Positions 9,491-56,153 of a stretch of DNA of 64,000 nt are shown one piece after another (within the stretch, counting starts at the first letter, position 1; every line of letters begins with the position of its first letter). Position numbers and translations under genes: made by a program. The stretch is from Gyromitra esculenta (Eukaryota > Ascomycota > Pezizomycetes > Pezizales > Discinaceae). The notes beneath the pieces were generated by a model. That model was not told where the DNA came from. It did not search any database and saw only the letters and a list, made by a program, of their open reading frames with translations. The stretch is taken from positions 3,410,001 through 3,474,000 of the forward strand of contig JBCAML010000001.1 in NCBI GenBank assembly GCA_038503075.1, written 5' to 3'.

Positions 9491-10359
9491 TCTCAAGGAG
9501 CGACAATCTTGTCAAGCTCTCAGGTATCTCCCGAGATAAGCAGTGCTACTTGAAAGAGAAATTGGCGGCAAGAGTGTATACGGAGATTCTACAGGTTCTA
9601 CGTTTTACTCAAGTTATGATGACTTGATCTCAAGGAACGGGATTTCATCAAGCCCTTTGGTATCCCCAAAGGCGAGCAGTGCTACTTGAACGAGAACCAG
9701 TGACAGGAGTTTAAACGATGATTCCACAGGCTCTACGATGGAGAGGAGTTATGATGACTCCAACAGCGAAACTACGTTGATGTAGTGAAGTGATAGAGCG
9801 CGAAGTATCATGGAGGCGATGAAGGATTGTGTAGGAATCCTGGCTTGTATTGTAGGATACAAGTAAAGTGACAATAGAAGACATTGCTTAAAGAGAAGAA
9901 AAGGAAAAGTACAACAAGAGGGGAAAGCCCTTCGCTTATATACCCATATTCCCTTCCTTCGATGACAAACGTATGACTCATCATAATAGAAACCAAAGGA
10001 AACATAACGAACAACAACAAAATAAGACAACCGAACACCTACGCAATTAACCTTGCAACAAACAACCATCCGTGAAACTTTAGGGCAGCGACAGCGAAGG
10101 ATTACGAGGTGTAATTGAGGTTTGTATTGTAAGATACAAAGAGTGTACAATAGAAGATGTTGCTTAAGGAGAAGAAAAGGAAAAGTACAACAAGAGGGGA
10201 AAACCCCTCGCTTATATACCAACAATCCTATCCTTCGCTGACAGACGTATTACCAATCGCAACGAAAAACCAAAGGAAGCCCAAGGAACAACAACAAAAC
10301 TTAGTAACCGTGTACCCATGTACCCAACCAACCAACCAACGAAACATCCATCCATGAAA
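9491..10359 (+). mobile_element. TCE copy 1 (interrupted by copy 2)
   Basis: TCE element of the TCTCAAGG...CCATGAAA subtype. Its left part is 9491-9627 and its right part 10083-10359, about 414 bp when the inserted copy is removed. Flanks are a perfect 5-bp duplication GTCCG at 9486-9490 and 10360-10364. The uninterrupted target is present in reverse at about 56380-56459, so the insertion boundaries are directly confirmed by an empty site inside the same window. Hairpin arms TCAAGT (end of left part) and ACTTGA flank the place where copy 2 landed. Confidence 0.92.
9628..10077 (+). mobile_element. TCE copy 2, nested in copy 1
   Basis: A 450-bp TCE with ends TCTCAAGG and CCGTGAAA. Flanking 5-mers CTTGA (9623-9627) and CTTTA (10078-10082) agree at four of five positions, consistent with an aged target duplication. 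Hairpins visible: CCTTTGG/CCAAAGG (9654-9660 with 9666-9672), GGAGT/ACTCC and CTAC/GTAG further on. A TATATAAG box lies on the minus strand near 9940. This is the longest copy. Confidence 0.9.
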
Positions 10360-10364
10360 GTCCG

Positions 10365-10502
10365 GGATGGTATGCCCAGTCCACCAAATTGACAGGCCCT
10401 GTATAGTCTATTTTTTAATCCAAGACTGCCAGCCGCTGATCCACATATCTCCATGGACCTTCCTGGACCAACTGCATACTGTCATGGACCTTCATGGACT
10501 AC
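10365..10502. repeat. right piece of the interrupted repeat
   Basis: Continues the repeat begun at 9444. Its first ~60 bp (ggatggtatgcccagtccac and beyond) match the reverse complement of about 56340-56405. TGGACC/GGTCCA words recur here and in the 56-kb copy. It is cut by TCE copy 3 at 10503. Confidence 0.65.
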
Positions 10503-10909
10503 TCTCACGGTTCAGACCTCGTTAAGCCCTTCAGTATCCCTTAAGGTGAGCAGTGCTACTTAAATGAGGTACAGAAGCGATAGAAAGTACGAAGTTTCTA
10601 CAGGTTCTACATGGGGTCTATCTCAAGGCGAGATAAGTGCAATGTATAACTAAGGCAGCGACAGCGAGGATTCTGAAGTAGAATCAAGATAGTATTATAC
10701 GATACAGTAGAAGTGAAACGAGAATGTTGCTTAAGGAAAGAAGAAGAAAAACAACAAGAACGGCCAAAATCCATCACTTAAATACCCTGCTTTTCTTTCC
10801 CTAACCCATAACCAAAAGATAACTGAACAACAAAGACATTATACAAAGCCCTTAGCCCATCGCGACCATTAACAGAAACCCAACCCATTATCCGATTCTA
10901 TCCGTGAAA
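10503..10909 (+). mobile_element. TCE copy 3
   Basis: A 407-bp TCE with TCTCACGG and CCGTGAAA ends. Flanking 5-mers ACTAC (10498-10502) and ACCAC (10910-10914) differ at one position. It carries the conserved hairpins ATCTC/GAGAT and ATTCT/AGAAT, and CTTAAATACC (TATTTAAG on the minus strand) where other copies have TATATAAG. Confidence 0.9.
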
Positions 10910-10914
10910 ACCAC

Positions 10915-11340
10915 CTACCAAATCTTTTGTATTCTCCAACTCTAATTAATTCCACTACTCTCTGAGCAGGACCCCATTGATCAACCATTTTTTTTCTCTG
11001 GATTTCCATGGATGCTGCCAGACTTCCCATTTGTTGTCTCTCATTCTATATATCTGTGGCAATCTTTTGCTGAACCATCGCAGACCTTCTGCCCGTGGTC
11101 TGGGGACCTCTTTGATTGTGCAGTGCTTGAGGACGTTATCTGCAGACCATAAAACTACAGCAACTATTTGTTGAAATTAACTAAGCTGGTAACTAGGGTC
11201 ACAGAATTGTGGAAAAGTCTCTATTCAGATTTCTATAATTAAATAGTGGACCTGTAGTGTACACTATTCTAGTCTTATACAACAACAAAAAACAGATCAA
11301 CTAAGAGAGTATGCGAAATACGTGAACCTTTTGGTCTGGT
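10915..11340. other. region without recognisable gene
   Basis: No coding sequence or repeat family was recognised. Probably decayed transposon sequence, since it lies between mobile elements on both sides. Confidence 0.3.
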
Positions 11341-14894: not shown

Positions 14895-14909
14895 CCACGT
14901 CCCCCACTC

Positions 14910-16902
14910 CATCCTCCGTCCCCGCTACAACCTCTCCGATTGAAAGTTCACCTCCACCTTTTGCATTGCAACGGCGTTACACACAGACAAAAGTCTTCAG
15001 CACTTTGGCTTCATTTCATTACCCCGCTCATAAAAACAAGTTGGATCCTTGTTTTAACAACACCACTCTGATCGCATGTCTTCAGAAGACACAGCAAGAA
15101 TCTTTACACCTCTCTTCCCCTCTCTCCAAAGAGGCGAAGCCTCTACCACTCCTGCTTCCTCCGCAACTGCCATGGCGGAACCAAGAACCCCCTCACCATC
15201 GAAACAGCAGAGAGCTGACACCTCTCCTCCATCCCCACCTGTCTTTTCCCATCCTACAGACTGAATTAAGTTAATCCTAAACAAGGACAACGGGATCACA
15301 GGAGCCCCCATGACCCTAAAGACAGTTAGCCAGTGCCTTACAAAGGCTGACAAACTGAATCTCACCCACTTCACCTCCCTCCTTAACATGATCCAACATC
15401 TACAAGGCGAGATCACCCTACTGAAAGAGGCTGCTAAGAGTCCAGCACCTCCCCCAGACATGTTTCCAGAATCACCAACTCTGAGCAAACAAGAGCGCAT
15501 GCACCTCCTCACAGTAGGAAAAGCAGCGCCCCCAGCACCACCTGCACCATTTAGTGCTCCTCCTCCTCTTGCACCTGCTGCAGCAATTCCTGCTCCTCCT
15601 GCCCCAAAGCCCTTGCAATGGGCCCAGGTGGCCGCCAGCAAACCCAAGAGAAAACCCCAACCAGCAAAAGCCAAACAGGCTGCGAATGCACCTGCCCCTA
15701 AGACTTCATCTGCCCCTCCCTCAACATCTCCCACCATGCGCGCTCGTCGTTTGATTGCCAAACGCAACGGCTCTCCCCTATCCCAAGGGTCACCCACGGA
15801 ACTCAGAGATAAACTCAACTCTGCCATTGGTTCCATCACCATCCAGTCTGTGGCAATAGACACACATTCCCAGAATGTGTCGTTGACGGTCATGAACAAC
15901 ATGTTTGCCAACACTCATTACAGAAAAGTTGGCCAATTTCTCCACATCATCCCAGGAGCTCGCTCCCTACACCTTGACGAACCACTGCATCAACTCGTTG
16001 TACATAGTATCCCCACTTCTATGGAGCCTCTTGCCATTCAGCAAGAACTCTGCAACTTCAACCCTGGCCTTATCATGGACATTCCTCCCAGATGGCTCAC
16101 TCTACCTGAAAAACGAAGAGGAAAAACAGTTTCCTCAATTGTTATCACACTCTCTGGCCCTAAAGCTAATGAGATCACCAACCACACTCGCTTATCTGCC
16201 TTCTCCACCACTGTTAGATCCGAACGCAAACTCCGTTTTGGACCCTCCACCCAGTGTTCCCAATGTCACAAATTTGGACACCACACAAACAAATGCCCCA
16301 ATCAACCATGCTGCTGCTGGTGTGTTGGACTTCATCCCACTGCTGCTCATAGCTGCCCCACACTCTCTTGCTCAACCAAAGGCCGCCCCTGCCCCCACAC
16401 TCTTGTCAAGTGTGTTAACTGCGACGGACCCCATGAGTCACACCTGAACAGCTGCCCATCACGCCCCTCAAAGGCCTCACCGCCCCTTCTGGCAGATGAC
16501 CAGATGGACCTTTAGGTCACTTTACTTATACTCGTTCAACCCCAACTAACTTTGATTGGAATTTTTTCCTGGCTGCTCTTTACTTCCATTGTGGCTTTAC
16601 TGCGGACCTTCTTCTACTGTTTCTCATTGTTTTTTGGCTGTTGTTTGCAAGTCTCTTCACTCTCATAGGCATTCATTGTCAATTTTCCCTGCACGGTTAA
16701 GTCGTTTATCACTGGAACATCGTCTTGTTCTGTTGGAAGTACTTAGTTCGCTTTTCCTTTGTGTTCTCTCTATGTTACCCAGGTGGATAAGGGTGTCTAC
16801 TTGACAGGGATAGGTTTTTTGACTTCATAACCTTCGTGTTGCATAAGTGGTTTTGTACCTAGAAACAATAATCAAATGATTTAAACAAAAAAAAAAAAAA
16901 AA
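14910..16902 (+). mobile_element. LINE copy 1, ORF1-only (no ORF2)
   Basis: Non-LTR retrotransposon insertion starting CATCCTCCGTC and ending in a poly(A) run (16887-16902). A 15-bp target duplication flanks it: CCACGTCCCCCACTC at 14895-14909 and CCATGTCCCCCACTC at 16903-16917. The ORF1 stop (16513-16515) runs straight into a ~370-bp 3' UTR shared with the ORF2-bearing copy. The element therefore lacks endonuclease and reverse transcriptase entirely and must move in trans. Confidence 0.88.
15076..16515 (+). pseudogene. LINE ORF1 (Gag-like) with one in-frame stop
   Basis: Gag-like RNA-binding ORF1 of a Tad/I-type LINE, starting MSSEDTARIF. An in-frame TGA at 15262-15264 splits it; the frame then continues unbroken from 15310 for 401 codons. 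The order is a serine/proline-rich start, a helical segment (LTHFTSLLNMIQHLQ), a long Ala/Pro linker, a conserved middle (QSVAIDTHSQNVSLTVMNN), and at the C-terminus three zinc knuckles of CCHC type: CSQCHKFGHHTNKC, CCWCVGLHPTAAHSC and CVNCDGPHESHLNSC. ORF1 of this kind coats LINE RNA. It could act in a retrotransposition particle if the stop were read through. Confidence 0.85.
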
Positions 16903-17057
16903 CCATGTCCCCCACTCCATCCTCCGTCTCCTCTACATCATCCCTGATTGAAATTTCAACTCCACTTTTTGTATTGCAACGGCGTTACACACAGCAAAAA
17001 GTCTTTAACAATTAGGCTTCATTACCCCACACTTCAACTCGCTTAGGATCCGAGACG

Positions 17058-18811
17058 ATGTTGGAGTTCAACGCACCCACCCCCCACACTCCCATGAGAA
17101 GCAGCATGCTTCCCCCTCTATCCACCCATCATTCCAGAGCAAACAGTCCCAGAATCACCCTACCCCCTGCCATCATGACACCCATCTTCCCCTCACCCTA
17201 CTCTGGTGTTGCCAACGACCTCAGTGAGGCCATTGGTGAACAAATCCACCCTCACACTGAACTCTTTGACGCCATTTACACTTCTGTTCTTACAGGAAAG
17301 TCTGACATTCAAGCCGTCCTCACTCTCTGCCTTGTTCTCATCCAGGAGAATAAACTCATCAACAGCCACCTGAGAATTATCTCTGACCACACTGACCACA
17401 TCTCTTCCGTCCTTGCACTGCACACCACTGCACTCAATGGCATCAACCAACTCGCTGCTACTGGCGCAGCCAAAACCACTACCACCACACCCTCCAAACC
17501 TCCCCAACCCAACCAAACCTACGCCAATGTTGTCTCAAGGGGTGAGGTTTTTCTTCAAGCTCTCAGGTATCCCCCGAGATGAGCAGTGCTACTTGAAGGG
17601 AAAACTAAGCGACGAGAGTATTCACGATGTTCCACAGGCTCTACGAAGTGTTTCAAGTATAGAGGACTTGAGGGCGGCGACAGCGTAAGGTTATGAGGTA
17701 TAACCGAGGGTTGTATTGTGAAATACAGGAGTGTGCTATAGAAGACGTTGCTTAAGAGAAGAAGAAGGAAAAGTACAACCAGAGGAAAAACCCTTCGCTT
17801 ATATACCATAATCCAACTCGCCTGATGACAAAGACTTGACTCATTGCAACGGAAACCCAAGGAAACATAAAGAACAATAACACGATGTAACAACCTTGTA
17901 TCCATATACCCAACTAACCAACGAAAACATCCATCCATGAAATGTTGCTGCAATTGCCAGCTCCTCAATTTCTCCTCCCAAGGTGAATAAGAAAAGGAAA
18001 GGCAATGCATCTGCATACATTCCCCCTGCTCTCCCCCTGACCAGCGAAGGAATGTCCTCCTCTGAAGCTGCTAGATGGCAGCTGGAGATGACAGACGCCC
18101 GTTCCCGCCCTGGATTCAACAGAAACCTACCTGCAAACCAACTCCCAGCGCCCGCCGGACAAGCTCCCCCAGCTAATAAACCAAAACCACTCCCTGCTTC
18201 CCAACACAGATTCTATGCCACCAGAACTATCCCAGAAGAATTTGAGCTCTCCTCCCAACATGCAGCAATCCTCCCCTCCGTCATTGCAAAGGCCTTGGAA
18301 AAGGTTAATGCAAAGGTCTCACTCGCTTTCACCGCAACTGTTAACTGTAACAGCACTGTCTCCATCCTGGCCTCACCCTTTGCACCCGCAATAGACTATG
18401 TCCCATACTCCTCCCATCTCACCAAAGCAATTAACGAAGCCCTTCCTGTGAATGACAACCACTTCAATGACTTCATCCTTGCCCCAACGCACATGGAATA
18501 TGTTATCCACAATCTTCCAGTTCACGCCCTCCCAAATCCTACTGAAGAGTTATTTGCCACTATGGCAGCTAACATTAAATACTCCTCCGAAATCATCATT
18601 GCAGGTGCCAGATACCTCAAACCACTCCTCTCCGATAGAAACAAAGCCACCACATCAGTTGTTATTTCCCTCGCACCTGAGGAAGCTGCCAAACTCAAAG
18701 ACTCCATCCACCTCTTCTCATGCTCTAGGAAATGTGAAAAGATGCACTCCTTCTCACCCATCACCCAATGTCGCAACTGTTACACCTTTGGACATACTGC
18801 TCCCTTTTGCA
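17058..18811 (+). pseudogene. ORF1 of LINE copy 2, disrupted
   Basis: Gag-like ORF1 with a different sequence from the other copies, starting MLEFNAPTPHTPMRSS. Helical segment at about residues 60-120, then a linker, a Pro/Ala-rich region and one zinc knuckle (CRNCYTFGHTAPFC), after which the sequence is cut by LINE copy 3. A TCE (17533-17942) sits inside; removing it and one copy of the TGTTG duplication restores the frame (ANVV joined to AAIASSS), which proves the TCE is a later insertion. The downstream zinc knuckles are lost. Confidence 0.8.
17533..17942 (+). mobile_element. TCE copy 4, in a LINE ORF1
   Basis: 410 bp with ends TCTCAAGG and CCATGAAA and a perfect 5-bp target duplication TGTTG (17528-17532 and 17943-17947). 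Paired arms here include TCAAGT/ACTTGA and GGTTAT/ATAACC, which differ from other copies but remain complementary. Minus-strand TATATAAG near 17800. Confidence 0.93.
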
Positions 18812-20824
18812 CATCCTCCGTCCCCGCTACAATGTCTTTGATTGAAAGTTCACCACCACCTTTTGCGTTGCAACAGCGTTACACACAGCCAAAAGTCTTT
18901 AGCACTTTGACTTCATTCCATTACCCCTCTTTTACAAACGACTTGGATCATTGTTTATACAACAACCCACGGTCGCAATGCCTCCCAAATGTAAAGGCAA
19001 CATGTTCACACCCATATTCCCCCATCATCAGGTTGAGGGAACTCCAAACCCATTCGTTGCCTCCTCCTCTTCATCTGCGGTGGAACCAAGAACCCCCTCA
19101 CCATCGAAAAGACAGAGAGCTGACACCTCTCCCCCATCCCCTCCTGTTTTTGGAAAGCCAACCCACTGGGCGGGCCTCTGGAATAAACCAGGGGAGGCCA
19201 TTACCACTCACCTAGGCAGTGAGCCAGCCTTTGGGTTTGATGTTTGCAACGCTCTAGCCAGAGCCGACAAGATCAACCTCCTCCACTTCCAAAAACTCCT
19301 TGACATGATACAGCATCTACAAGGCGAAGTCACCACCCTCAAGGAAGCAGCAAGCAAACCAGCTCCTGCACCTCTCCCAGACATGTTTCCAGAGTCTCCG
19401 ACTTTGAGCAAACTAGAGCGTGACCACCTACTGCTCACAGTAGGGAAGACAGCGCCTCCAGAACCACCTGCACCTAGTGCTCCTCTTCCTCCTGCTCCTG
19501 CTATTGCTACCCAAGCACCTCCTCCTGCCCCGAAGCCTCTGCAATGGGCTCAGGTGGCGGCCAGCAAACCCAAGAGAAAATCCCAACCAACAAAGACCAA
19601 ACAGGCTGCCTCTGCACCTGCCCCTAAGACTCAGGTCTCCCCTCTCACCATCACTCCCACCATGCGCGCACGCCGTTTGATTATCAAACGCGACGGCTCT
19701 CCCCTTTCTCAAGGGTCACCCACGGAACTCAGAGATAAACTCAACTCTGCCATTGGTTCCATCACCATCCAGTCTGTGGCAATAGACACACATTCCCAGA
19801 ATGTGTCGTTGACGGTCATGAACAATATGTTCGCCAACACCCATTACAGGAAAGTTGGTCAATTTCTCCACATCATCCCTGGAGCTCGCTCCCTACACCT
19901 TGACGAACCATTGCACCAACTTGTTGTACATGGTATTCCCACTTCAATGGAGCCCGCTGCCATTCAGCAAGAGCTCTGCAACTTCAACCCCGGCCTCACC
20001 ATGGACACTCCTCCAAGGTGGCTCACCCTACCAGAAAAACGAAGAGGAAAAACAATTTCCTCCATTGTCATAACACTCTCTGGCCCCAAAGCTAATGAGA
20101 TCGCTAATCGCACACGCCTTTCTGCTTTTTCCACCACTGTCCGAGCTGAACGCAGACTTCGTTTCCGACCCTCCACCCAGTGTTCCCAATGTCACAAATT
20201 TGGACACCACACAAACAAATGTCCCAACCAACCATGCTGTCCCTGGTGTGTTGGACTTCATCCTACTGCAGCCCATACCTGCCCCACCCTCACTTGCTCA
20301 ATTAAAGGCCGCCCCTGCTCTCACACTCTTGTTAAGTGTGTCAACTGCGACGGACCCCATGAGTCACACCTGAACAGCTGCCCATCACGCCCTTCAAAGG
20401 CCTCACCGCCCCCTCCAGCAGATGACCAGATGGACCTTTAGGTCACTTCACCAATACTTTCCCAACCCCTACTAACTTTGATTGAAAACCTTTTCTGGCT
20501 GCTCTCTGCTTCCTTTGTGGCTTTACTATGGACTTTCTTCTATGGTTTCTCATTGTTTTTCGGTTGTTGGCTGCAAGTCTCTTTACTCTCATAGGCATAC
20601 GCTGTCAACTTTCCCTGCACCTTTAAGTCGTTTTATCGCAGGAACATCGTCTTGTTCTGTTGGAAGTACTTAGTTCGCTTCTCTTTTGTGTTCTCTTTTG
20701 TTACCCAGGTGGATAAGGGTGTCTACTTGACGGGGATAGGTTTTTTGACTTCATAACCTTCGTGTTACATAAGCGGTTTTGTACCTAGAAACAATAATCA
20801 AATGATTTAAACAAAAAAAAAAAA
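18812..20824 (+). mobile_element. LINE copy 3, ORF1-only with intact ORF1
   Basis: Starts CATCCTCCGTC, ends in poly(A) (20813-20824), length 2013 bp, no ORF2. It interrupts LINE copy 2. The flanks (tcccttttgca before, ccagttgag after) do not form a target duplication, so sequence was lost or the junction recombined. It has the same ORF1-to-3' UTR structure as copies 1, 4 and 5. Confidence 0.85.
18951..20441 (+). CDS. intact LINE ORF1 (Gag-like, three zinc knuckles)
   Basis: A 496-residue uninterrupted Gag-like protein, the only undamaged ORF1 in the window. N-terminal Ser/Pro-rich segment, a helix-forming stretch LLHFQKLLDMIQHLQGEV, Ala/Pro linker, conserved central domain, then CSQCHKFGHHTNKC, CPWCVGLHPTAAHTC and CVNCDGPHESHLNSC knuckles and a short acidic tail. 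The start at 18951 (MFIQQPT) is followed in frame by a second Met at residue 10 (MPPKCKG), which may be the real start. Predicted to bind element RNA. Because the element has no ORF2, retention of an open frame suggests recent origin or selection. Confidence 0.85.
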   Translation: MFIQQPTVAMPPKCKGNMFTPIFPHHQVEGTPNPFVASSSSSAVEPRTPSPSKRQRADTSPPSPPVFGKPTHWAGLWNKPGEAITTHLGSEPAFGFDVCNALARADKINLLHFQKLLDMIQHLQGEVTTLKEAASKPAPAPLPDMFPESPTLSKLERDHLLLTVGKTAPPEPPAPSAPLPPAPAIATQAPPPAPKPLQWAQVAASKPKRKSQPTKTKQAASAPAPKTQVSPLTITPTMRARRLIIKRDGSPLSQGSPTELRDKLNSAIGSITIQSVAIDTHSQNVSLTVMNNMFANTHYRKVGQFLHIIPGARSLHLDEPLHQLVVHGIPTSMEPAAIQQELCNFNPGLTMDTPPRWLTLPEKRRGKTISSIVITLSGPKANEIANRTRLSAFSTTVRAERRLRFRPSTQCSQCHKFGHHTNKCPNQPCCPWCVGLHPTAAHTCPTLTCSIKGRPCSHTLVKCVNCDGPHESHLNSCPSRPSKASPPPPADDQMDL

Positions 20825-20844: not shown

Positions 20845-23800
20845 CCCCTGACAGCACCAGCTTACTCACTCATTACACCAACCACTACTACCGGCGAAAA
20901 AGTACTTGCCTGCTTCTACATTCTTCATAGCTTTGAATCCAGTGTTTCCTTTGTTCCCTTGTTATTCCCTAGAAATGATTATTGTGGCATTTCCCTTTCT
21001 TTTGTTAACACTGTGTTCAGCCGTTATCTGTCCTCTCTTTCCATTTACTGTGTTTATAATCGTCATGTATCCCGTTACTTGAGATCAGTTTCCCCTGAAA
21101 CTGCATTTCCACCATCCCAATTTCCCACCCTTGTTCTGGGGGACTTCAACATACATCACTACGCTGCCGACCCTGAAAGGAACCTACAGTCATCAGACCT
21201 TTCACAATCATCTTCTTACTTTGAAATGGCCATGGAACACGGCTACTCACTCCTCAATACCCCTGGATCACTCACCAGATACTCCCCGACCCAAACAGAT
21301 GGAATGGTGTAATTGATTTAGCATTTGCCAACATGCCACTCTCGCCCTACATCACCAAATGGCAGAACAAACTCCCAGCCTCAGGCTCCGACTACACTGT
21401 CATCTCAATCACCATCAAAAAACCACAACTCCATCAATCATCTTCTTCGCCCAACTGGGCTCTCACCCCCAGGCCTCTACTCCAAACAAAAGTTGCATCC
21501 TTTACTTGCTCACACATAACCAACGACATCCAAACATGGTTCGATGACAATCTAAAGACATTAACACAACCTATTGTTGCATGCACTCCATCCAAACGTC
21601 CATCCAAGTGGTCAAAAGCCTGGTGGACACCTGACATCTCACAACTTCGCACCATATTTCACTCTATTGCCAGAGATCTCAAAAGGGGAATGGCAACAAA
21701 CTTTGAACTCAAATCAGCAAGGTATGCCTACTTTGGTGCAATCAAAAAGGCCAAAGCAAAACACTGGAATGAATTTATCAGCAACACTGGTGTTAAAGAT
21801 CTCTGGGCAGCCAATCGGATGAAAAAACCCAAAGATGCTGATAACCTCCCCTCCTTCCCAACATTACTTCCTCCACCCAACTCAACAAAGCACTTATCTC
21901 ACACTTCTTCCCACCACAACCACCAACACTTACTCCTCCATGCTTCTACCACCATAACATACCACCCATTACAGCAGAAGAAGTATCCAAAGCACTCAGC
22001 AAATCCTCCAACACCTCCACCCCGGGCCCAGACCAAATCCCATATGGAGTCTGGAAACACATCCACGCCCTCAATCCTGAAGCAATTGCATCACTTCTCA
22101 CCCCCCTCTTACAATATGGCATCCAACCCAGCTCATTAAAGGCAGCCAATGGCATTGTTCTACCCAAAGCTGGCAAACCTTCCTACAGTGAACCATCCTC
22201 CTTTTGCATTATTGTTCTCTTGGAAACAATCTCCAAGATCTTGGAACACATTGCTACATTCCGCCTCTACGACCATGCTCTCACTGCTGGCCTAATCCAC
22301 CCCAATCAACTAGGCTCACTCCCAGGCAGAAGCATCTCTGACGCTGGAACAACACTTCTCCATTAAATCAAGCTACTCCAGGCATCTGAACACAAGGTTT
22401 CATCACTCTTCCTAGACATCAAAGGAGGCTTTGACAACATCAGAGCCAACACCCTCGCCAAACAGCTGAGGAAAAAAGACACTCCTGAATACCTTGTTCA
22501 TTGGGTCCTCTCCTTCCTCTCCAACAGATTCTGCCGCCTACTCTTCAAAGGTAGTCCTTTCACCTTTGAACCAATAGACGTGGGTGTACCTTAGGGTTCA
22601 CCAATCTCTCACGGTTGGGTCCTTCATTAAGCCCTTCTGTATCCCAGAAGGTGAGCAGAGCTACTTAAGCGAGAGGTCAACACGTTTCGAAGAGTGCAAT
22701 GTTTCTACAAGTTCTACGTGATGGTCTATCCCGAGATGGGATAAGTGCAGCGAGGTGAACAGCGACAGTGGGGATTCTGAAGTAGAATCGAAGTGGTATT
22801 GAATAATCTCAGTAGAAGGTAAATGAGAACGTTGCTTAAGGAAAGAAAGGAAAAGTACAACAAGTGACAAAAACCCAGCCCTTAAATACCCCGCTTTTCC
22901 AATACTCCAACGCATAACCGAAACCTAACTGAACAACAAAAGCATTATACAAAAAGAACGACGCGTGACAACTCAAACTTTATCCCTGTCCATTACCTGG
23001 TTTGATCCATGAAACAATCTCTCCACTCCTCTTCATCATCTACGTCGCCCCACTCCATCAGGTCAAACTAGCAAAAGGAATCACCCTCTCCTATGTTGAT
23101 GACTTCAGCCTCACTGTTGCATCCTCCTCAGAAAGATCCAACATACAACAACTGCAACGTGCCTGGAACTATCTACAACATGTGGGGGCAGTTCTAGACA
23201 TTTCTTTCTTCATCTCCAAAACAGATTTCATCCATTGGAGAACAGAAAGGGATCAATCACCCTTCTGCAACCTCCCCATCTCACTTAATAACAATCTCTT
23301 CTTCCCTCTTAAAGTTGTCAAATGGATTGGCCTTTGGTTTGATGCCAATTTGTCGCCATTTCATCACTTCAAACAATGCTTTCTGAAAGCCAATAAAACA
23401 TTCCTCCTCCTCCGCTGCCTATCTCCAGCTGGAACAGGACTCACCTCATACAATAACAGAAGATTGGCCCAGGCTGCCATTCTCCCCACAATGCTCTATG
23501 GCTCTGCTGTCTTTACACCCAACAATTCCTCTCTCACCCTCCTCCAACGCCTTTGGGACAAAGTACTCCGCTGGGTCACCAACTGCTTCACATCAACCAA
23601 CTCACTCACACGATGCCCCAACGCGGCCCTGCTTTCAATCAATGTACTTTGTTACAAATACCGTCTCCAGTTTGCCATTCGCAGCATGGCTGCATCACCA
23701 CATCTTAACCCTGTCTCAGGCAGGTTCCCCAGTAACTTCCCACTTCAGGACCCCTTCAGAGCACCATCACATCACCACCTACTCCTAGGCATCTCAACAA

Positions 23801-27799: not shown

Positions 27800-28209
27800 T
27801 TTCACGGATTAAGGATTGAGGATAGGGTTAGGTTTTGGTGCGACGGGTGTTATGGGTTTCGGGTCTTTTGTTATAATGTTATTGTTCTTCAGTTGTTTTC
27901 GGTTATTGGATTTGTTGGGAAAAGCGGGGTATTTAAGCGGTGGATTTCGTTCGCTTGTTGTTCTTCTTTTCTTCTCTCTTTAAGCAACATTCTCGTTTCA
28001 CTTCTGCTGTATTTGTTATAATTCCACTTCGATTCTACCTCAGAATCCCCGCTGCCACTGTGAAACATCGCCGATACTTCGCCTTGAAGTATACCCTTCG
28101 TAGGACCTGTAGACCATACTGCACTCTTCGAACGTATTGGTTTCCCGCTTAAGTAGCACTGCTCACCTTCAGGGATACTGAAGGGCTTAACGAGAAGCCA
28201 TCCGTGAGA
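27800..28209 (-). mobile_element. TCE copy 6
   Basis: 410 bp, minus orientation, ends TTTCACGG and CCGTGAGA, perfect duplication AGTTT (27795-27799 and 28210-28214). Inner hairpin CCTTCAG/CTGAAGG and the outer arms TTCTCGTT/AAGCGGGAA are kept with G-U type pairs in the reverse-complement reading. It sits just beyond repeat R4. Confidence 0.93.
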
Positions 28210-35907: not shown

Positions 35908-36324
35908 TCTCACGGTTGTGCCTCAGGTTAAGCCCTTCAGTATCCCTGAAGGTGAGCAGTGCTACTTAAGCGAGGTGACAACACGTTTGAAGAGTGCAGC
36001 GTGTTCTACAAGTTCTACGAGGGGTCTATCTCAAGGCGAGATAAGTGCAGCGAGGTGGACAGCGACAGCGAGGATTCTGAGGTAGAATCGAGATAGTATT
36101 TCGACGATTTACAGCAGAAGGTAACGAGAACGTTGCTTAAGGAAAGAAGAAAGAGAATACACAAACGACAAAACTCCCCCGCTTATATACCCCGCTTTCC
36201 CGTCGCACAAACAACAATCCAACAATAACCGAAACACAACCGAACAACAAAGCCATTATAACCAAGTACCCCTATTACTACAAACCACTTTATCCTAACC
36301 CATTACTCGATCTCATCCGTGAAA
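35908..36324 (+). mobile_element. TCE copy 7
   Basis: 417 bp, ends TCTCACGG and CCGTGAAA, perfect target duplication ACACC (35903-35907 and 36325-36329). Inner hairpin CCTTCAG/CTGAAGG, ATCTC/GAGAT and GATTCT/AGAATC are intact. Minus-strand TATATAAG near 36185. Confidence 0.94.
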
Positions 36325-36620: not shown

Positions 36621-37032
36621 TTTCACGGATAGAAAAGGGTAATGGGTCAAGGCTATTGTGTTGGATGTAATGGTTTTGGTTAGGGAATATAATGTCTTTG
36701 TTGTTTGGTTGTTGTTTGGTTATGGGTTTTCATATGTCAAAAGCGAGGTATTTAAGGGATGGGTTTTCTATCGTTTTGTATCTTCTTCTTCTTCTTTCCT
36801 TAAGCAATGTTCTCGTTTATCTTCTTCTGTACTGTTTAAATTCTACCTTGGTTCCACCCAAGAACCCTCGCTGTCGCTGTTCACTTCCCTGCACTTATCC
36901 CATCTCGAGATAGACCCCTACGTAGGACCTGTAGAAACATCGCACCCATCAAACGTGTTAGAAACCTCGCTCAAGTAGCACTGCTCATCTTCAGGGATAC
37001 TGAAGAGCTTAGCGAGGGACCTAACCGTGAGA
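36621..37032 (-). mobile_element. TCE copy 8
   Basis: 412 bp, minus orientation, ends TTTCACGG and CCGTGAGA. Flanks TGAAT (36616-36620) and TGTAT (37033-37037), one mismatch. Inner arms TCTTCAG/CTGAAGA and outer CCTCGCT/AGCGAGG, both perfect and different from other copies; GGTTC/GAACC replaces GATTCT/AGAATC. Confidence 0.92.
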
Positions 37033-38397: not shown

Positions 38398-38808
38398 TTT
38401 CATGGATGAGGTCGAATGATGGGGTAGGGTTAGCCATAGGGTTGCAACGAGTTATGATGGTTGGAGAATAATGTCTTTGTTTTTCGGTTATGGTTTGGTT
38501 ATGAGTCAGGGAGGGAAAGTGGGGTATAAAAGGAATGGGTTTATTGGGACTTTTGTTGTTTTTCTTTCTTTCCTTAAGCAACGTTCTCGTTACCTTCTAT
38601 TGTATTTGCTCTAGAATACCATCTTGATTCTACCTCAGAATCCTCGCTGTCGCTGTTCACTTCGCTGCACTTATCTTATCCAAGATAAGACCCTCCCGTA
38701 GATCCTGTAGAAACATCGCACTCCTCTAAACGTGTTGACATCTCGCTTAAGTAGCTCCGCTCACCTTCTGGGATACAGAAGGGCTTAATGAGAGACTCAA
38801 CCGTGAGA
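38398..38808 (-). mobile_element. TCE copy 9
   Basis: 411 bp, minus orientation, ends TTTCATGG and CCGTGAGA. Flanks ACAGG (38393-38397) and GCAGG (38809-38813), one mismatch. Paired arms CCTTCTG/CAGAAGG and ATCTT/AAGAT: the latter is a compensated version of ATCTC/GAGAT. Confidence 0.92.
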
Positions 38809-44488: not shown

Positions 44489-44490
44489 GG

Positions 44491-44722
44491 TTTTTTTTTT
44501 TTTTTTGTTTAAATCATTTGATTATTGTTTCTAGGTACAAAACCGCTTATGCAACACGAAAGTTATGAAGTCAAAAAACCTATCCCCATCAAGTAAACAC
44601 CCTTATCCACCAGGGTAACAAAGGAGAAAACAAAAAAGAAACGACCCAAGTACTCCCAAGGGAACAAGACCATGTTCCTGCGATTAAACGACTTAAAGGT
44701 GCAGGGAGAATTGACAGTGTTA
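44491..44722 (-). mobile_element. LINE copy 6, 5'-truncated 3' UTR only
   Basis: 232 bp: poly(T) 44491-44506 followed by the shared LINE 3' UTR, cut off after about 215 bp. The sequence just outside its poly(A) is CCACGTCCCCCACT (reverse of 44477-44490), the same 14 bases that flank LINE copy 1. Directly abuts LINE copy 5. Confidence 0.85.
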
Positions 44723-46707: not shown

Positions 46708-46710
46708 CCT

Positions 46711-47396: not shown

Positions 47397-48534
47397 GTAG
47401 TCCTACTGCTCTGCAGTGGGAATAGCTATAGGAATAAGGCCATTGCAAATACTAGGATTCAGGTTGAGATTTTAGAGTATTTTCGTGCAAGGTACTTAAT
47501 TATCTTAAGGGCTTTACTCAGTAGTATTCTGTCTGATGAGACTGGGAAGAAGAGCAACAGGGGGCGGGGTCATGCACTATCTTTATAGTGCTGCTGACTC
47601 GCCATCCTCTTTCTGTTCTACTCTGCTGGGGGCCCATCAAGACCCTGAGAACATGCCAAGATATTGCGGGCGGGGCACCTCAGGATTCAGCTAATGATCA
47701 CTTCGGCGCTCTCCGGCACTCCTCGGTTGTTCTGTCCAGTTAGACCTTCTGGATCCGCCAGCTGCATGCCATGCCTATGCTGGATGCAGGAATTGGTGCT
47801 GATCAGTCTACTGTTGCATGTGAGGTGTCCTGCACTTAATAGATTCCCTATTTCCGCACCAATGGCTCTGGGCCGCTGGTACATGCACAGATGGATTGGG
47901 AACACCACCACAGGAGCCTCCTGTGTTTGGTATCACCGGAGATATATCATTGGCTTGTCAGCTAATGTTATTCTCGCTGGTTCCACTCCATCGAAACAGC
48001 AGGGTAGGAGGAATCCTCTAACATGTGGTAGCTACACCACTCATGTCGATCCTTACTACCTCTCTGCTTGCCTGTCTCACGGTTCAGTTTCTCGTTAAGC
48101 CCTTTAGTATCCCTAAAGGTGAGCAGTGCTACTTAAGCGAGATACTAACACGTTCGAGGAGTGCAGCGTTTCTACAGGTTCTACAGTGGGTATACTTCAA
48201 GGCGAAGTATCAGCGATGTTTCACAGCGACAGCGGAAGTTCTGAGATAGAACCGTGGTGGTATTTGGAGTAATACAGGTAGAAGTGAACGAGAACGTTGC
48301 TTAGAGAAGAAAAGAAGAGAACACCAAAACCGTCCTCCTTATATACCCCGCTTTCTTCTATCCAAAACTCATAACCGAACATAACCGAAAGACAAAGACA
48401 TTGTTTAACAAGAGAGAACCCATGACCCACGAACATTACTTCTAACCGAAACCAAACCCATTATCCTTCTTCATCCGTGAAAGCCTGATACTATTATGCT
48501 TCACTACAGGTAACGGTATTGTTGATCCGTTACA
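47397..48534. repeat. solo LTR copy 3, inside integrase, itself holding a TCE
   Basis: LTR of the TGTAACGG family with a perfect 5-bp target duplication AAAGG (47392-47396 and 48535-48539). Removing the LTR joins YRK to ASQRYWWPG in the integrase zinc domain, so it is a genuine insertion. It contains TCE copy 10 (48075-48482); without that it is ~725 bp. This is a three-level nest: TCE in LTR in Gypsy pol. Confidence 0.93.
48075..48482 (+). mobile_element. TCE copy 10, in an LTR
   Basis: 408 bp, ends TCTCACGG and CCGTGAAA, perfect target duplication GCCTG (48070-48074 and 48483-48487). The intact LTR copies at 14.2 and 26.9 kb show the empty site. Paired arms CCTTTAG/CTAAAGG (48111-48117, 48123-48129), ATACTTC/GAAGTAT, GTTCT/AGAAC and GTATT/AATAC. 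Minus-strand TATATAAG near 48340. Confidence 0.96.
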
Positions 48535-49770
48535 AAAGGCGTCCCAGCGGTACTGGTGGCCCGGCATGGCGAAAGAGGTCGAAGAGTATGTGTGAACCTG
48601 TGAGCAATGTCAGCTGAGAGCATCAGCCAGGTATCCAGACGTGCTACACCCTACTTTTGCGACTTGCCTGTTCAAAAAGGTATGTGTAGACATCGTGCAT
48701 ATGCCTATGGGAGCCGACCAGAAGAGGTATCTCGTGGTGGCTAGGGACGACTTCTTGGGGTGGGTAGAAGGGCGTGCTTTAGAAAAGAGCAGCTCAGAGA
48801 AAGTGGCAGACTTCCTGTACCAGGAAGTGATCTCGCACTTTGGTTGCCCAAAGAAGATCATGGTGGACGGTGGCCCAGAGAATAAGGCTTTCACCGAGCG
48901 GCTCTGTGAAAGGTATGGGATCGACAGGAAAGTAGTATCAGCTTATCACTCCCAAGCGAATGATCTACTGGAGCATGGCCATCAACAGGTTGTAGACGCC
49001 CTTCAGAAGATATGCAAGACGCCCAAAGATTGGCCCAAGCACAGGCATTTGGTGCTGTGGGCAGATTGGGTGACAGTCAGAAGACCCACAGGGAAGCACC
49101 CATTCGAGCTCGTCTTTGGGTGGCAGTGTGTCCTGCCCATTGAGGTATCCTTAGCATCCTGGGGCAGCATCCTTTGGGGGATATTCATACCACCGGCGAG
49201 CTGTTGGCAGCACGCACTAGGCAGTTAGAAATGAGAGACAAGGATATAGAGGAGGCGGCAGCTAGGCTGAAGGAGAGCAGGTCCGAGAATAAGAGGTATT
49301 TCGACGCCAACAGGACAAAGAGACCGGCTTCCCAGGCTCTGCGGACAGGTGATCTAGTCCTGCTCCATACCACGAGGCTATACAAACAGTGGAGTGATAA
49401 GCTCGCAAATAGGTGGAAAGGGCCTTTTAGGATCAAGGTCATATCTGCTGTAGGGACTGTTACCCTGGAAGAGCAGGACGGTACCCACCTGGAAGGCACT
49501 GTTCCTCCCGATCGTGTCAAACGCTTTCTCCAGCGCGCGGGGGACCCTACCATGGTCATGGATGTGGAGTCCGGTGTGGAGTCCAATGTAGAGTCAGGCA
49601 TGGAGTCGGGCGCGGAGGAAGGGGGTACAGAGAGCAAGGTGGCGGCGGCGGTGGAGGTGGCAGAGGATCTGGATAAGGGGGGATCGGGGGAGAGTGGATT
49701 GGTGGTAGAAGGTAAGTGTGTAAAACCCAAGAAGGATTGGGGGTTTTACATACAGGTTTAGGAGAGGAAG
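48535..49770 (+). pseudogene. Gypsy integrase relic
   Basis: Continues the pol relic: ASQRYWWPGMAKEVEEYV, stop, TCEQCQLRA (Cys half of HHCC), then the catalytic core with DIVHMP (first Asp), MVDGGPENK (second Asp) and a third position reading NDLLEHGHQ (Glu). A frameshift near 49170 moves into LKESRSENKRYFDANRTKRP and then GDLVLLHTTRL...KWKGPF-type GPY/F sequence. The tail is Glu/Ser/Val-rich. The stop and frameshift make it non-functional. Confidence 0.87.
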
Positions 49771-49784: not shown

Positions 49785-50192
49785 TCTCACGGTTCAGTCC
49801 TTCGTTAAGCCCTTCAGTATCCCTGAAGGTGAGCAGTGCTACTTGAACGAAGTTTCAACACATTCAAAGAGTGCGAGGTTTCTACAAGTTCTACGTGGGA
49901 TCTATCTCAAGGCGAGTTAAGTGCAGTGTGATTATGACAGCGATAGTGAGGGTTCTGAGGTAAAACCGAGATCGTATTCGAACAATACAAGAGAAGTGAA
50001 ACGAGAACGTTGCTTAAGGAAAGAAAGAGAAAGTACAACAAGCAACGAAAACCTATCCCTTAAATACTCCACTTTTCCCATACTCCGACTCATAACCGAA
50101 ACATAACCGGACAACAAAGACATTATATAAAAAGAATAACCCGTGACAACCCATAATCCATCCCTGTCCATTACCTGATTCAATCCATGAAA
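49785..50192 (+). mobile_element. TCE copy 11
   Basis: 408 bp, ends TCTCACGG and CCATGAAA, perfect duplication AGGCG (49780-49784 and 50193-50197). It sits in the purine-rich stretch after the Gypsy pol relic. The outer arms are CTTCGTT/AACGAAG, a fully complementary variant; inner CCTTCAG/CTGAAGG (49811-49817, 49823-49829). Confidence 0.94.
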
Positions 50193-51091: not shown

Positions 51092-51146
51092 GGTGAATGA
51101 TGCCAAGCTCATGGAGAAGGTGTCAGAGGAGTTCGATCTGTACCTG

Positions 51147-52072: not shown

Positions 52073-52082
52073 ACAAACAGTC

Positions 52083-53550
52083 GGATCAGAAGGGCTGGCT
52101 GCGCAATTGCTACCACTCGGTCCTGCAACAGGCGGCTAGACAAGACCCGGTGTACTATCTCCTGGTTCTGGCGGCGAGATCGGACGAGGTGTATCGCATG
52201 CTTTCTTGCATTATCACTTCTGCAAGTTATGCCAAGTTTACCCAGAGACAGAACGGATGGTTGTTTTGGTTGGTTGGTTAGGTGTATGGGTTTATGGTTG
52301 TTAGGTTTCGTGGTTGTTCTTTGTGTTTCATTGGGTTCTCGCTGTGATGAGTAAGGTGTTTGTCATCGAAGGAGTGGAGTTTTGGTATATAAGCGAAGGG
52401 TTTTCGCCTCTTGTTGTACTTTTTCTTAACCTGTCTTATCTTCTTATTGTCACTTTCTTGTATCTCTGTACAAGGGGATTCTTACACAATCCTTCGTCAC
52501 CTCCGTGAAACCTCTCATACTTTCACGCCACTACATCAACGTAGTTTTGCCGTCGGAGTCATCATAACTCCTTTCCCCGTAGAGCCTGTGGAATCATCGT
52601 TTAAACTCCTGTCGCTAGTCTTCGTTCAAGTAGCACTGCTCACCTTTGGGGATACCAAAGGGCTTGACGAAACCTCGCTTCGTGAGATAAACCCCCGGAA
52701 GGCAATAGACTCAGGCGTAGGTGTGGACCACATACAGACTTCGGTGTCATTGGATCAGGAGATCCCCGAGGGCTGCACTGCGGTTGTGGAGGGCTTCCAC
52801 AGGAATCTTCGTGCTTGGTGGGAGAGGGTAGAGAAGCGGAAGGAAGCAAAGGATGGTCCCACGGTGCGGACCTCGAAGATCTACTGGCAGGAGGATGTGG
52901 AGGCTTTCGGGGGGGAGACCAACGTCATATGCGCACCGGGAGATCTGCGCATTTCGCTGCCACACCTTATACACGGATCAACAGCAGGGCCAAAGGATCA
53001 GGCGATCCTGCAGCATAGAACGGTCAACAGCTGGCCAATAGGGCTCCAGGGTGACGGGGAGGCGTTGGAGTTCCTGGGTGTCGGCACAAGGACAGAGATC
53101 ACTGAGGCACATAGGTCTTTGGGTGTGCTCCTGAAAAACCCTACTGGGCAGGTTAATGTCCACAGGCGTATGGTGGGGCGCTTTCCTAGCACCCCCGAGG
53201 TACGAGGTGTTTAGGGGGTTGGTGATGCACTTTTTGGCCTGGTAGACTGGGAATCGGCGCGGGTTCGGTGGGAGCTTGAGGTTCTCCTGGGAGCGGACGA
53301 GAAGGCGGCTTGGGGGCTGATCGAGAAGGTTAGGAGGGGGCTGGCAGAAGCGATGTGGGAGGGGTATAGGGTACAGGAGTGGGCCGAGCGACGTGACTTT
53401 GGAAAAGACTCGTTCTTCCAGGCGCGTGATGCGGGCACCTGGGAGCCGCCATTGAGGGTCACCCGGGAAGGACATCAGCAACACCTACAATTTGCGTCTG
53501 ACGCACCTAGTGCACTGGATGCCCAAAACGCACAGGACGGAAATCGATCC
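52083..53550 (+). pseudogene. relic of an unidentified gene, possibly an Fe(II)/2-oxoglutarate-dioxygenase-like protein
   Basis: Coding blocks on the plus strand: DQKGWLRNCYHSVLQQAARQ and DEVYRMLSC (52083-52230), then after TCE copy 12 INPRKAIDSG, SVSLDQE, GCTAVVEGFHRNLRAWWERV, IYWQEDVEAFGG, GDLRISLPHLIHGSTAGP and VNSWPIGLQGDGEALEF. The frame is open from 52688 to 53214, then decays (VFRGLGDALFG..., EAMWEGYRVQEWAERRD). From memory, related fungal proteins have an FRHxDxN block just before INPR, which would be an HxD iron site, with LPHxxHGST as the distal His. Here that block is missing exactly where the TCE sits. I cannot name the family and the assignment is tentative. Confidence 0.4.
52250..52687 (-). 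mobile_element. TCE copy 12
   Basis: About 438 bp, minus orientation. Right end CGTGAGA; the left end has diverged (ACGGATGG at about 52253). It belongs to the TCTCAAGG/TCTCACGAAG subtype with copies 1, 2 and 4. Perfect arms CCTTTGG/CCAAAGG and GGAGT/ACTCC are kept; TATATAAG lies near 52387-52394. No target duplication is readable. Confidence 0.85.
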
Positions 53551-53867
53551 CCCTGACGCCCAGGCCTTTCCGCCTGATGCACATGGCGGGCCCACCAGCG
53601 CGTCAGGCGCAATTGAACGTCTCAGGCGCTCTCACCACTCCGCCCTGAGCCTCTCTGACACTCTCGCTATTGCGCCCTGAGCTCTCCCTAAGCTCGCCTG
53701 ACGACACTGGAGAGTAGATACGGCGTCATGATCTTCAATATTCGTCAAGGCTACTGGTCTATAAGGTACTAATCACTTTGGGACTTGTTCTAGTACTTGA
53801 TAATATGATTTATTCCACTCTCTATTCTAATATATATACACAGCGCGATACGCAAAGCTCCCTAACC
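53551..53867. other. GC-rich stretch with repeated CGCCTGA/TCAGGCG words
   Basis: From 53560 to 53710 the words cgcctga, tcaggcg and cgccctgag occur about eight times, resembling the palindromic part of repeat R3. The rest is AT-rich and leads into the minisatellite. Confidence 0.4.
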
Positions 53868-54120
53868 TCCGACAAACAGGCGCCTAAACAGGCAGGAAAC
53901 AGGCGCCTAGACGAGCAGGAAAGAGAGCAGGAAAGCAGGCCCCGATGCAGGCAGGAAACAGGCGCCCTAGCGAGCAAAAAAGCAGGCAGGAAAGCAGGCA
54001 GGAAAACGAGCAGGAAACAGGCCCCGAAGCAGGCAGGAAAGAGGCGCCCTAGCGAGCAGAAAAGCGAGCAGGAAACAGGCCCCGAAGCAGGCAGGAAACA
54101 GCCCCGGAGTCGATTGGAAG
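53868..54120. repeat. minisatellite, inverse of the one at 42290-42475
   Basis: Degenerate units of aaacaggc[cg]cc[gt]a[ag]gc followed by aggcaggaaa and gcgagcagg, ~35 bp, about seven units. The reverse complement matches the 42-kb array. Confidence 0.85.
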
Positions 54121-55357
54121 CAGGCTCTGATGCAGGTCGGAAACAGGTCGTGAAGGAGGCTCTGAATCGCGAAGAAAGTAGGCACTAAAGCAGTTGATTA
54201 GCAAGCTTCTACGCAGTAAGAATGGGATGTTTGAAGCAGCAGAGAAGGAAAGCAAGGAGGCGGAAGCTATGGGGAAGGCTTTGGGGGCGAACTTTAGGGG
54301 GAGCAATAGGGGTAGCTATAGGGGAGATTGCAGACGGCATGTTGACGGGAGAGGGCCGGGTAACAGGAAAGCTAAGCGACTCATAAAATATCACTCGAAT
54401 TCACAACTTTCGCTGCCAAAGTAAGGGCGACCGACAGCACACCTACCCTGTTGGAGAGCTTTGACAGGAGCTTGGAGAGCATCAGCGAGAGCTTCTAGAG
54501 AGGGTATTCGGGAGAAAATTATGCAGCGGAAGTATACATATGTATCTTTGTCTGACTAGCGACATCAATTATGCAGTTAATCATCGACTTTGTCCGCTAT
54601 AAGACACTTTACTATGACGCTATAGTGGATCTTCGTCTAAAAAGCGACAGTTTAAATGCAAGCTGACATTGCCGCTGTCGGCTACATGACAGGCATGCAT
54701 TCTGTGTACAAGCGACCGATCAAAACTCACGATGAAGAAGAGAAGTCGTATTACTAGTAGTATGGAAGGCTTTTGAGGCTCTGCGAGCGTCTTGAAGCGA
54801 GAGGAATGGTGTAGCGTGCTTGGTGGGGGGGGGGTGCGCAGAGCAAGGGTTTTGACTCCATAGATTTTGCTAAGTGCTCAGGGTCAGGGTTAGAGCTCGC
54901 TTCTGGCGCAGCAGGAGAGACAAGCAATCGATCGGGCACCGCAGAGAACAGTGCAGAAGCTCAGGCCCAGCTGGGGGCACCAGAGATTGCAGCAGAAGAT
55001 CCAGACGTGCCTGACGCACTAGGCTTTTGGAGCACTCCCCAGGGCGCTTGGGGCGCCCAAATGACACGGGGCGGATGGCGTGCGCCCTGGCGCAGCTAAG
55101 CAATCTCATGGCGCAAATGAAGTCTTGTTGATGGAAAGGAGGCTCTCCTACGGAACGGGTTTTCGGTGACGCCATTCCTGCCAGAGGGGGAGGGCGGAGA
55201 GAGCGGGGCGAGTGGGGAGAGCGAGGTGAGTGGTGGGGAAGAGGAGAGAGAAGAGGAGAGAGACTCTACGCTGGGCAGCCGCCCCACTAAGCGGAGTCTT
55301 CCAGGAGGGGAGGAAAGGGTGGAAGGTGGAGGAAAGCGATGGAGGACAGCGGCATAG
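54121..55357. other. unrecognised region, possible gag-like or low-complexity coding remains
   Basis: Two plus-strand open stretches, 54194-54424 (Gly/Arg/Ser-rich) and 55166-55357 (Glu/Gly-rich), and a segment at 54880-55080 reading Ala/Gly/Glu-rich. None matches a known domain. Confidence 0.3.
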
Positions 55358-56030
55358 GCGGTTTATGGTGAGGGGTTCCCTTTGTTTATGTCGTCGTTTC
55401 TTGGCTTGAAAAGGAGGGTTTCTATGTCTCCTAAGGTTAGCTGGTATTCGTATCTTCTTTTTTTGGGGTCCTCGTGGTAAGGGGGGGGTATCTGTTTCCT
55501 TTGGGGATCTGTTTCCTTGGGGGATTCGTTTCCTTGGGGTCTTCACGGTAGGGGGGGGGTTTTCTGGTAAGGTGTTGGCCATGGGACGGCCAATTTTAGG
55601 AGGGGAGGGTTGTGGTGGGGCGTGAGGCTGCAGGCGTGGTAGGGAGGCGATGTCACGTGGTTTATCACGTGACGTGGGTTAGGGTATGGGGTTTGTAGTG
55701 GGGGGGATCGTGTATATCTTTTGGCGGGGTCGCGGCTTTCTGTACATCATCCATCACCATTCTTCTACTATTCTATATATTATTCGCTACTCTACATACG
55801 GGTGTCTACTATCACGAGGCCTATTCTTGGGCGTGCCATTCGGGGGCTCTCGCCTCCTCCCCGCTACTGAGCAAGCTTTAGACATCGCTCGCAGGTGTCG
55901 CTCGCAGAGCCATTGGAGGTAAAGTCCCTAGAAAAGACTTATCTAGTGGAAGTCCGCGTCGACGCGCCCTCCTACCAATAAAAGGGAATACGATGTCAGA
56001 TCTCGAGGTTACTGCTAGGGCGTCCCTACC
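55358..56030. other. G-rich spacer
   Basis: Runs of seven to nine G occur at 55480-55488 and 55551-55559. Two nearby copies of tcacgtg (55651, 55664) form a loose inverted repeat. No gene. Confidence 0.35.
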
Positions 56031-56153
56031 GCCCGCCCACAACGTATGACTCATTGCAACGGAAAACCAAAGAAAACATAAAAGAACAACAACGAAACGT
56101 GACAACCATACACCCATGTACTTCACTGACCAACGAAACAACCATCCATGAAA
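56031..56153 (+). mobile_element. TCE copy 13, 5'-truncated
   Basis: Only the last ~120 bp of the element remain (actcattgcaacgg... to CCATGAAA), matching copies 1, 2 and 4. The left part is missing or replaced by unrelated sequence. Confidence 0.75.

Follow-up and report, generated by a model that had tools for sequence, protein, structure and literature searches.

A covarying repeat of Gyromitra esculenta is very probably the long terminal repeat of a self-priming chromodomain Ty3/Gypsy retrotransposon

In this study we analyzed a stretch of 64,000 nucleotides from Gyromitra esculenta (assembly GCA_038503075.1, 47.1 Mb in 23 contigs; contig JBCAML010000001.1, positions 3,410,001 to 3,474,000), hereafter the window, in which an element of about 410 bp, termed TCE, is repeated. 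Judged by sequence, TCE is the long terminal repeat (LTR) of a chromodomain Ty3/Gypsy retrotransposon, very probably one of the self-priming Tf1/sushi kind, and the window holds solo LTRs and fragments of it. The original prediction had proposed that a folded RNA is selected in TCE and had placed the element outside the LTR class. Selection of a folded RNA was borne out, as covariation was found in the hairpins H2 (GGTTCT/AGAACC), H3 (TACTTC/GAAGTA) and H5 (CCTTCAG/CTGAAGG) as well as in a long-range duplex, while the classification had to be given up because pairs of TCE flank gag-pol. The accompanying argument that mobile elements other than short interspersed nuclear elements (SINEs) and retrozymes show no such constraint did not hold either, since a structured leader is described for self-primed LTR retrotransposons (PMC10085805). 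An LTR can thus carry strong RNA covariation, so that such a signal in a repeat does not by itself indicate a new class of RNA. What the leader provides is comparative, phylogeny-corrected support for a self-priming RNA structure including a long-range pseudoknot, based on 60 natural copies from a single genome.

A search with an LTR profile identified 14 TCE-type stretches between positions 9491 and 56153 (Table 1), of which ten are complete (407-450 bp), one is near-complete and three are fragments. The repeats first described are therefore real, although 13 copies had been counted. The fixed ends that had been claimed were confirmed as well: the end motif TCTCA[AC]GG occurs 22 times in the window against 4.8 expected, and none of 100 shuffled sequences reached 22. 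Each of the ten complete LTRs has its own 5-bp target-site duplication (TSD), exact in six cases and with one mismatch in four. On the sense strand the LTRs run from TTTCA[CT]GG to CC[GT]TGAGA, i.e. TT...GA; the canonical TG...CA ends, which are usual but not obligatory for LTR retrotransposons, are absent in this family, and non-canonical ends are on record for other LTR elements (PMC5659011). No gag-pol of the TCE family was found in the window, which makes the copies there solo (single) LTRs or fragments. At 9491-10359 a complete LTR is flanked by two fragments, one from the U5 side and one from the opposite LTR end, an arrangement which suggests tandem or recombined LTRs.

The identity of TCE became apparent from the genome. 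Using copy 48075-48482 as query (1650 candidates, 40 scored), several matches were found to be TCE pairs in the same orientation about 6 kb apart. Three such pairs (L031, L032 and L033) were examined as full-length elements. Their LTR pairs are 99.5, 99.3 and 95.2% identical, each whole element is bordered by an exact 5-bp TSD (GCTAG, TCCGC and TCGCC), and in all three a G-rich tract lies 4 nt before the 3' LTR. The long coding frames stand on the strand opposite to TCE as first written. Together with the LTR pairs this means that TCE is the reverse complement of the LTR; on the LTR reading, the functional strand is thus the complement of the one originally given.

In L031, the sole element searched for domains, Retrotrans_gag, RVP_2, RVT_1, RNase H, rve, SH3_Tf2-1 and a C-terminal Chromo domain (E 1.4e-9) were identified, with protease, reverse transcriptase (RT), RNase H and integrase in the order of a Ty3/Gypsy chromovirus. 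Its gag and pol frames (sense 1009-2379 and 2367-4334) overlap by 13 nt in a -1 relation, which fits -1 frameshifting and resembles, by description, the fungal chromoviruses with a -1 frameshift in PMC10085805 (Fig. 4 legend). Among the close pol relatives listed, some are named Tf2 polyproteins of fungi and one Ty3-I; the RT relatives listed by name come from fungi, including Podosphaera, Morchella and Fusarium. Ty3 RT was among the best matches when the element RT was compared with solved structures, a comparison that yielded nothing on the leader. Searching viral contigs with the RT protein for a cross-species comparison yielded one distant locus of 27% identity, which was not used. Many of the scored RT matches lie within open frames exceeding 1,200 aa. 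Therefore, the family may still be active, which would make the structure testable. A Ty3-type gag-pol with a chromodomain is shared with the Tf1/sushi chromoviruses (Tf1, Tf2, Tj1, Tosmo1-3, Tcry1, sushi-ichi and Tcn1), and a TSD of 5 bp is also described for the Tosmo elements (PMC10085805).

These full-length elements refute the idea that TCE is a miniature inverted-repeat transposable element, a SINE, a retrozyme or another independent structured-RNA element, and we rejected it as having next to no probability. The single copies, their short near-inverted ends (TCTCACGG...CCGTGAAA) and their own 5-bp duplications would suit such an element; TCE pairs, however, flank gag-pol with the duplication at the outer ends, and the duplexes P1 and P3 described below require sequence outside the LTR. 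Moreover, the Rfam search of the window that had been suggested returned no family at the gathering score, and on 651 bases of L031 covering the leader it gave three sub-threshold matches; weak small nucleolar RNA matches in the leader (E 0.37-4.5) were treated as chance. All three full-length elements carry an extra single LTR with its own TSD (CCAAG, TTATC and ATCGC) in a short stretch coding for RNase H. An insertion hotspot was considered there and dropped, as among 30 fetched RT loci an LTR match was present in four and in none of them within that stretch.

The candidate RNA start and the primer-binding site (PBS) connect the LTR with the sequence beside it. Junctions were fetched for 60 distinct places, drawn from 100 of 299 and 100 of 338 listed (338 genome places match a post-PBS anchor plus the LTR end), and with L001-L033 added the set comprised 69 leader rows. 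Of these, 62 showed the R start, AAGCAA[CT][GA]T, within the distance accepted, and the other seven were left aside; removing two rows in which another insertion is nested directly 3' of the PBS left 60 leaders. The sense LTR contains a TATA-like box, TATATAA, at a peak of conservation. From the start of this box to AAGCAA the distance is 43-53 nt in ten of the 11 LTRs usable with the strict heptamer and 114 nt in the eleventh, and it is because of the position of the TATA box that we infer the primer site to be the RNA 5' end. The predicted RNA start AAGCAACGU matches the PBS ACGUUGCUU over 9 nt (duplex P1): in the DNA of full-length elements ACGTTGCTT sits 2 nt after the 5' LTR and is the exact complement of AAGCAACGT, and all nine nucleotides are complementary in most leaders. 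The site is also kept where it had not been selected for. Among 41 such LTRs (the 30 best matches of one search and the 11 window copies), 33 have AAGCAACGT (AAGCAA followed by CGT), four AAGCAATGT (TGT, wobble pairing) and two AAGCAACAT (CAT, one mismatch), and in two the site is absent. It forms a conservation peak beside those of the TATA box and the U5 junction, ranking 21st of 409 9-mers.

Priming by a tRNA or tRNA fragment, with the nine-nucleotide match to R as coincidence, deserves mention since tRNAs prime most LTR elements and half-tRNAs also serve as primers (PMC6317226). We consider it very unlikely here: TGG, the complement of the tRNA 3' CCA, was found within the first 20 nt past the LTR in none of the 69 leader rows, a count that covers the leader side only. 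Besides, the complement of the PBS lies downstream of a TATA box and is conserved in unselected LTRs, and the primer:PBS match is flanked by two further duplexes of the self-priming type.

One of these is P2. RNAalifold closes the leader by pairing AAGCAACGU-UCUC with GAGA-UU-ACGUUGCUU, so that the LTR terminus GAGA would itself be a duplex arm. Unconstrained folding of 30 of the 60 leaders placed all nine primer nucleotides on the PBS in 29 cases and eight in one; the mean fold z-score was -3.05 for the RNA strand vs -1.99 for its complement, with the RNA strand lower in 24 of 30. When about 25 nt past the PBS were included, RNAalifold, which cannot draw both, drew the third duplex P3 instead of P1. 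In P3, UCUACA-CC-UUCUAC just 3' of the PBS complements GUAGAA-CC-UGUAGA in the LTR, about 100 nt upstream of the PBS. P3 crosses the primer:PBS duplex and would thus form a pseudoknot; as one arm lies outside the LTR, only the RNA of elements with an internal part can form it. The six outer pairs of P3 covary: GTAGAA/TTCTAC is present in 25 leaders, GTAGGA/TCCTAC in 14, GTAGAG/CTCTAC in 13 and GTGGAA/TTCCAC in one, and seven more single combinations each have one or two non-Watson-Crick cells. Matched with its own partner, P3 has Watson-Crick pairs at all 12 positions in 52 of 60 leaders (55 if wobble pairs are allowed), compared with 30% of the cross pairs (54% if they are). On a tree that leaves out the P3 columns each varying pair changed in one to five steps, which implies few independent events.

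To separate such covariation from common descent, as the original prediction had recommended, we used a test modelled on R-scape, with a G-statistic under average product correction and a FastTree tree; in the null, the substitutions of each branch were moved to random columns. For 62 R-U5 sequences, window copies included, six of 65 RNAalifold pairs in three hairpins reached E<0.05 in the two-set version, and in subfamily A alone (46 sequences) five of 63 pairs were significant. For the 60 leaders extended past the PBS, five of 64 pairs in four helices reached the same two-set threshold, namely 55-69 in H2, 111-123 and 112-122 in H3, 141-280 in P3a and 211-220 in H5; a tree from non-helix columns gave the same five. 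Significant covariation in three or more helices had been named as support for a structured RNA, and it was found in four. Null alignments yielded 0.067 false positives each vs 0.05 expected, and four versions of a control with the partner slid gave no significant pair. Across the proposed helices 96% of cells pair in the 60 leaders vs 36-43% with the partner slid, and double Watson-Crick changes on single branches, counted over all helices, number 23 vs 0-3 for slid partners.

These results bear on the possibility that common descent or strand-symmetric C-to-T mutation, of the kind seen in repeat-induced point mutation, produced the paired changes without any structure. The copies are indeed related, the P3a pair 142-279 changes only once on the tree, and several of the differences in the hairpins are those between subfamilies A and B. 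Nevertheless, five pairs persist under a tree-based null with a near-nominal error rate, and the slid controls gave none. H3 and H5 include swaps among A-T, T-A and C-G and between C-G and G-C, which are not products of C-to-T mutation, and P3 links the LTR with sequence outside it. Accordingly, we regard an origin without structure as extremely unlikely.

The hairpins map to the R-U5 of the element RNA. The TATCC-loop stem first described (H5) retains all seven base pairs, one G-U counted, in ten of the 11 complete or near-complete window copies and occurs in at least five sequence versions; that copy 10503 is broken at one pair had gone unmentioned. Other stems named at the outset were seen in some of the copies, with at least one fully paired 6-5-6 hairpin in eight of 11, and the part of the alignment that was viewed shows others. 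The GTATT/AATAC-type stem (H1) showed no significant covariation in the 60 leaders. H2 and H3 are located between the primer and the PBS and have contact with neither; their sequences vary while the pairing is kept. This would suit a self-primed LTR retrotransposon in which H2, H3 and H5/H6 serve mainly in RNA packaging, dimerisation or translation. Such roles are common in retroviral R-U5 leaders, which counts for this explanation, and we consider it possible, if doubtful. The most conserved block of all is the near-invariant junction CTTAAGTAGCACTGCTCACC, and its position near the LTR end and the PBS fits a site of the priming complex better. Tentatively, then, the leader might be enlarged beyond a three-duplex structure by at least three conserved local helices and by a U5 junction that docks the element's own RT/RNase H, with the GAGA terminus kept as an arm of the priming duplex; taken as a whole we rate this as rather unlikely.

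Priming of this kind was first worked out on Tf1. In the model for Tf1/sushi elements, a self-primer:PBS duplex and two PBS-adjacent/LTR duplexes are described as forming a 'pretzel' (PMC10085805), and the PBS of Tj1 from S. japonicus is reported to complement the 5' end of the Tj1 RNA (PMC4600332). According to PMC6317226, self-priming elements are known from both fungi and vertebrates, and some plant lineages are predicted to have them. P1, P2 and P3 match the three published duplexes one for one, from which we infer self-priming with a primer of nine nucleotides. Transcription would begin at AAGCAACGU, about 43-53 nt downstream of the TATA box, with the first nine nucleotides of the RNA folding onto the PBS. 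P2, formed with the LTR terminus, and the pseudoknot P3 would lock the pretzel; the RNase H of the element's RT would then cut after about nucleotide 9, and the freed piece would prime minus-strand DNA. Compaction of the R-U5, about 220 nt long, is the most likely role of the local hairpins and of the three-way junction next to the LTR end, and we favour CTTAAGTAGCACTGCTCACC as a binding or docking site for RT/RNase H or Gag, these two being the least certain steps; packaging is the chief alternative.

Similar to the Tf1/sushi elements as described, the predicted RNA start is complementary to the PBS (PMC10085805, PMC4600332), and the pretzel duplexes recur, P3 with significant two-set covariation and P2 with 4 bp in subfamily A and a weaker form in B (PMC10085805). 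However, the primer of Tf1 is given as the first 11 bases (PMC7175516) compared with a match of 9 nt here, and the LTRs of the fission-yeast set are said to end 'always' in CA (PMC10085805), not GA. At least three covarying local hairpins and the proposed U5 three-way junction further set this leader apart from the published descriptions. Among the open-licence papers and passages reached, neither covariation in support of the long-range duplex of such a leader nor covarying local hairpins in a self-priming leader had been reported. A further parallel is the retroviral U5-inverted-repeat (U5-IR)/PBS leader, in which a U5 stem adjoining the PBS sets up initiation; there the primer is a tRNA, whereas on our model it is the RNA's own 5' end. 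Lin and Levin reportedly drew the U5-IR analogy in 1998.

Several observations weigh against a self-priming Tf1/sushi element with the leader proposed here. The LTRs end in TT...GA and not in TG...CA. The RNA start and the priming product are predictions from sequence. P1 is nearly invariant and has no covariation support; P1 and P2 are both too constant for such a test. Moreover, the patterns used for leader selection fix the PBS and part of P3b, an R start was also required, and P3 was proposed after some of the same leaders had been viewed. P2 has its four pairs in subfamily A only, while in subfamily B the first is C-A and the second U-G. H1, H4a and H6 lack significant covariation, H4a with many mismatches, and in subfamily B alone (16 sequences) one of 71 pairs was significant. 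With 38 representatives below 92% identity four pairs stay and H2 drops to E 0.08. The unrestricted test leaves two pairs at E<0.05 (111-123 in H3 and 211-220 in H5) and gives P3a E 0.27, and its third-best pair overall (86-108, E 0.10) lies outside the model. Finally, the direction of the wobble changes is only modest evidence for the RNA strand: where Watson-Crick pairing was lost, 46 changes led to G-U vs 32 to A-C, and it was regained 14 times from G-U vs 36 times from A-C.

Table 1. TCE-type LTR stretches in the window and predicted leader features of the example LTR at 48075-48482
Feature	Position	Strand	Basis
LTR fragment, 3' part, U5	9491..9621	-	LTR profile; directly adjoins the 9628..10077 copy
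Complete LTR, subfamily B, end CCTTGAGA	9628..10077	-	LTR profile; TSD CTTGA/CTTTA, one mismatch
LTR fragment, 5' part of profile	10083..10359	-	LTR profile
Complete single LTR, subfamily A	10503..10909	-	LTR profile; TSD ACTAC/ACCAC, one mismatch
Complete single LTR, subfamily B	17533..17942	-	LTR profile; TSD TGTTG, exact
Complete single LTR	22607..23014	-	LTR profile; TSD CAATC, exact
Complete single LTR	27800..28209	+	LTR profile; TSD AAACT, exact
Complete single LTR	35908..36324	-	LTR profile; TSD ACACC, exact
Complete single LTR	36621..37032	+	LTR profile; TSD ATACA/ATTCA, one mismatch
Complete single LTR	38398..38808	+	LTR profile; TSD CCTGC/CCTGT, one mismatch
Complete single LTR, genome query	48075..48482	-	LTR profile; TSD GCCTG, exact
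Complete single LTR	49785..50192	-	LTR profile; TSD AGGCG, exact
Near-complete diverged LTR	52253..52687	+	LTR profile
Short LTR fragment, 5' part of profile	56032..56153	-	LTR profile, E 7.8e-6
TATA-box-like TATATAA	48339..48345	-	Sequence; conserved peak
Predicted RNA start and self-primer AAGCAACGT	48294..48302	-	Partner is the PBS, outside the LTR
TCTC, 5' arm of U5-IR-like duplex P2	48290..48293	-	Partner GAGA at 48075-48078
Hairpin H2, GGTTCT/AGAAC	48238..48253	-	Covariation test
Hairpin H3, ATACTTC/GAAGTAT	48192..48210	-	Covariation test
P3 LTR arm, GTAGAA-CC-TGTAGA	48171..48184	-	Partner 3' of PBS in full-length elements
Near-invariant CTTAAGTAGCACTGCTCACC, proposed U5 three-way junction (H4b/H6/H5)	48118..48137	-	Conservation
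Hairpin H5, CCTTTAG-GGATA-CTAAAGG	48101..48119	-	Covariation test
LTR 3' end CCGTGAGA	48075..48082	-	GAGA is the 3' arm of P2

The window contains further mobile sequences. Between two single LTRs, an integrase core fragment (rve, E 3.7e-9) was identified at 48596-49228 on the forward strand and apparently derives from a different retroelement; an integrase stretch of 27% identity at 48542-48973 is likewise foreign to the TCE family. At 6922-8457 on the reverse strand an open frame of 511 aa contains a full DDE_Tnp_1_7 transposase domain (E 2.4e-40), which we take to be of the PiggyBac type. Repeats of about 2 kb are present as inverted copies at 18807-20824 and 32553-34569 (98-99%) as well as at 15033-16916 and 44477-46585. 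They carry open frames of 416-512 aa and represent an unclassified repeat; of the four frames searched, none matched a Pfam family at E 0.001, and for three this held even at E 1. A fragment of an SNF2-related helicase (E 3.8e-25) lies among repeats at 40025-41011 on the reverse strand. The gene at 62285-63628 on the forward strand is probably a host gene. It encodes a protein with a Tag1 C-terminal domain/DUF3712, and its six named matches are all from fungi, several of which are presumably lichen formers.

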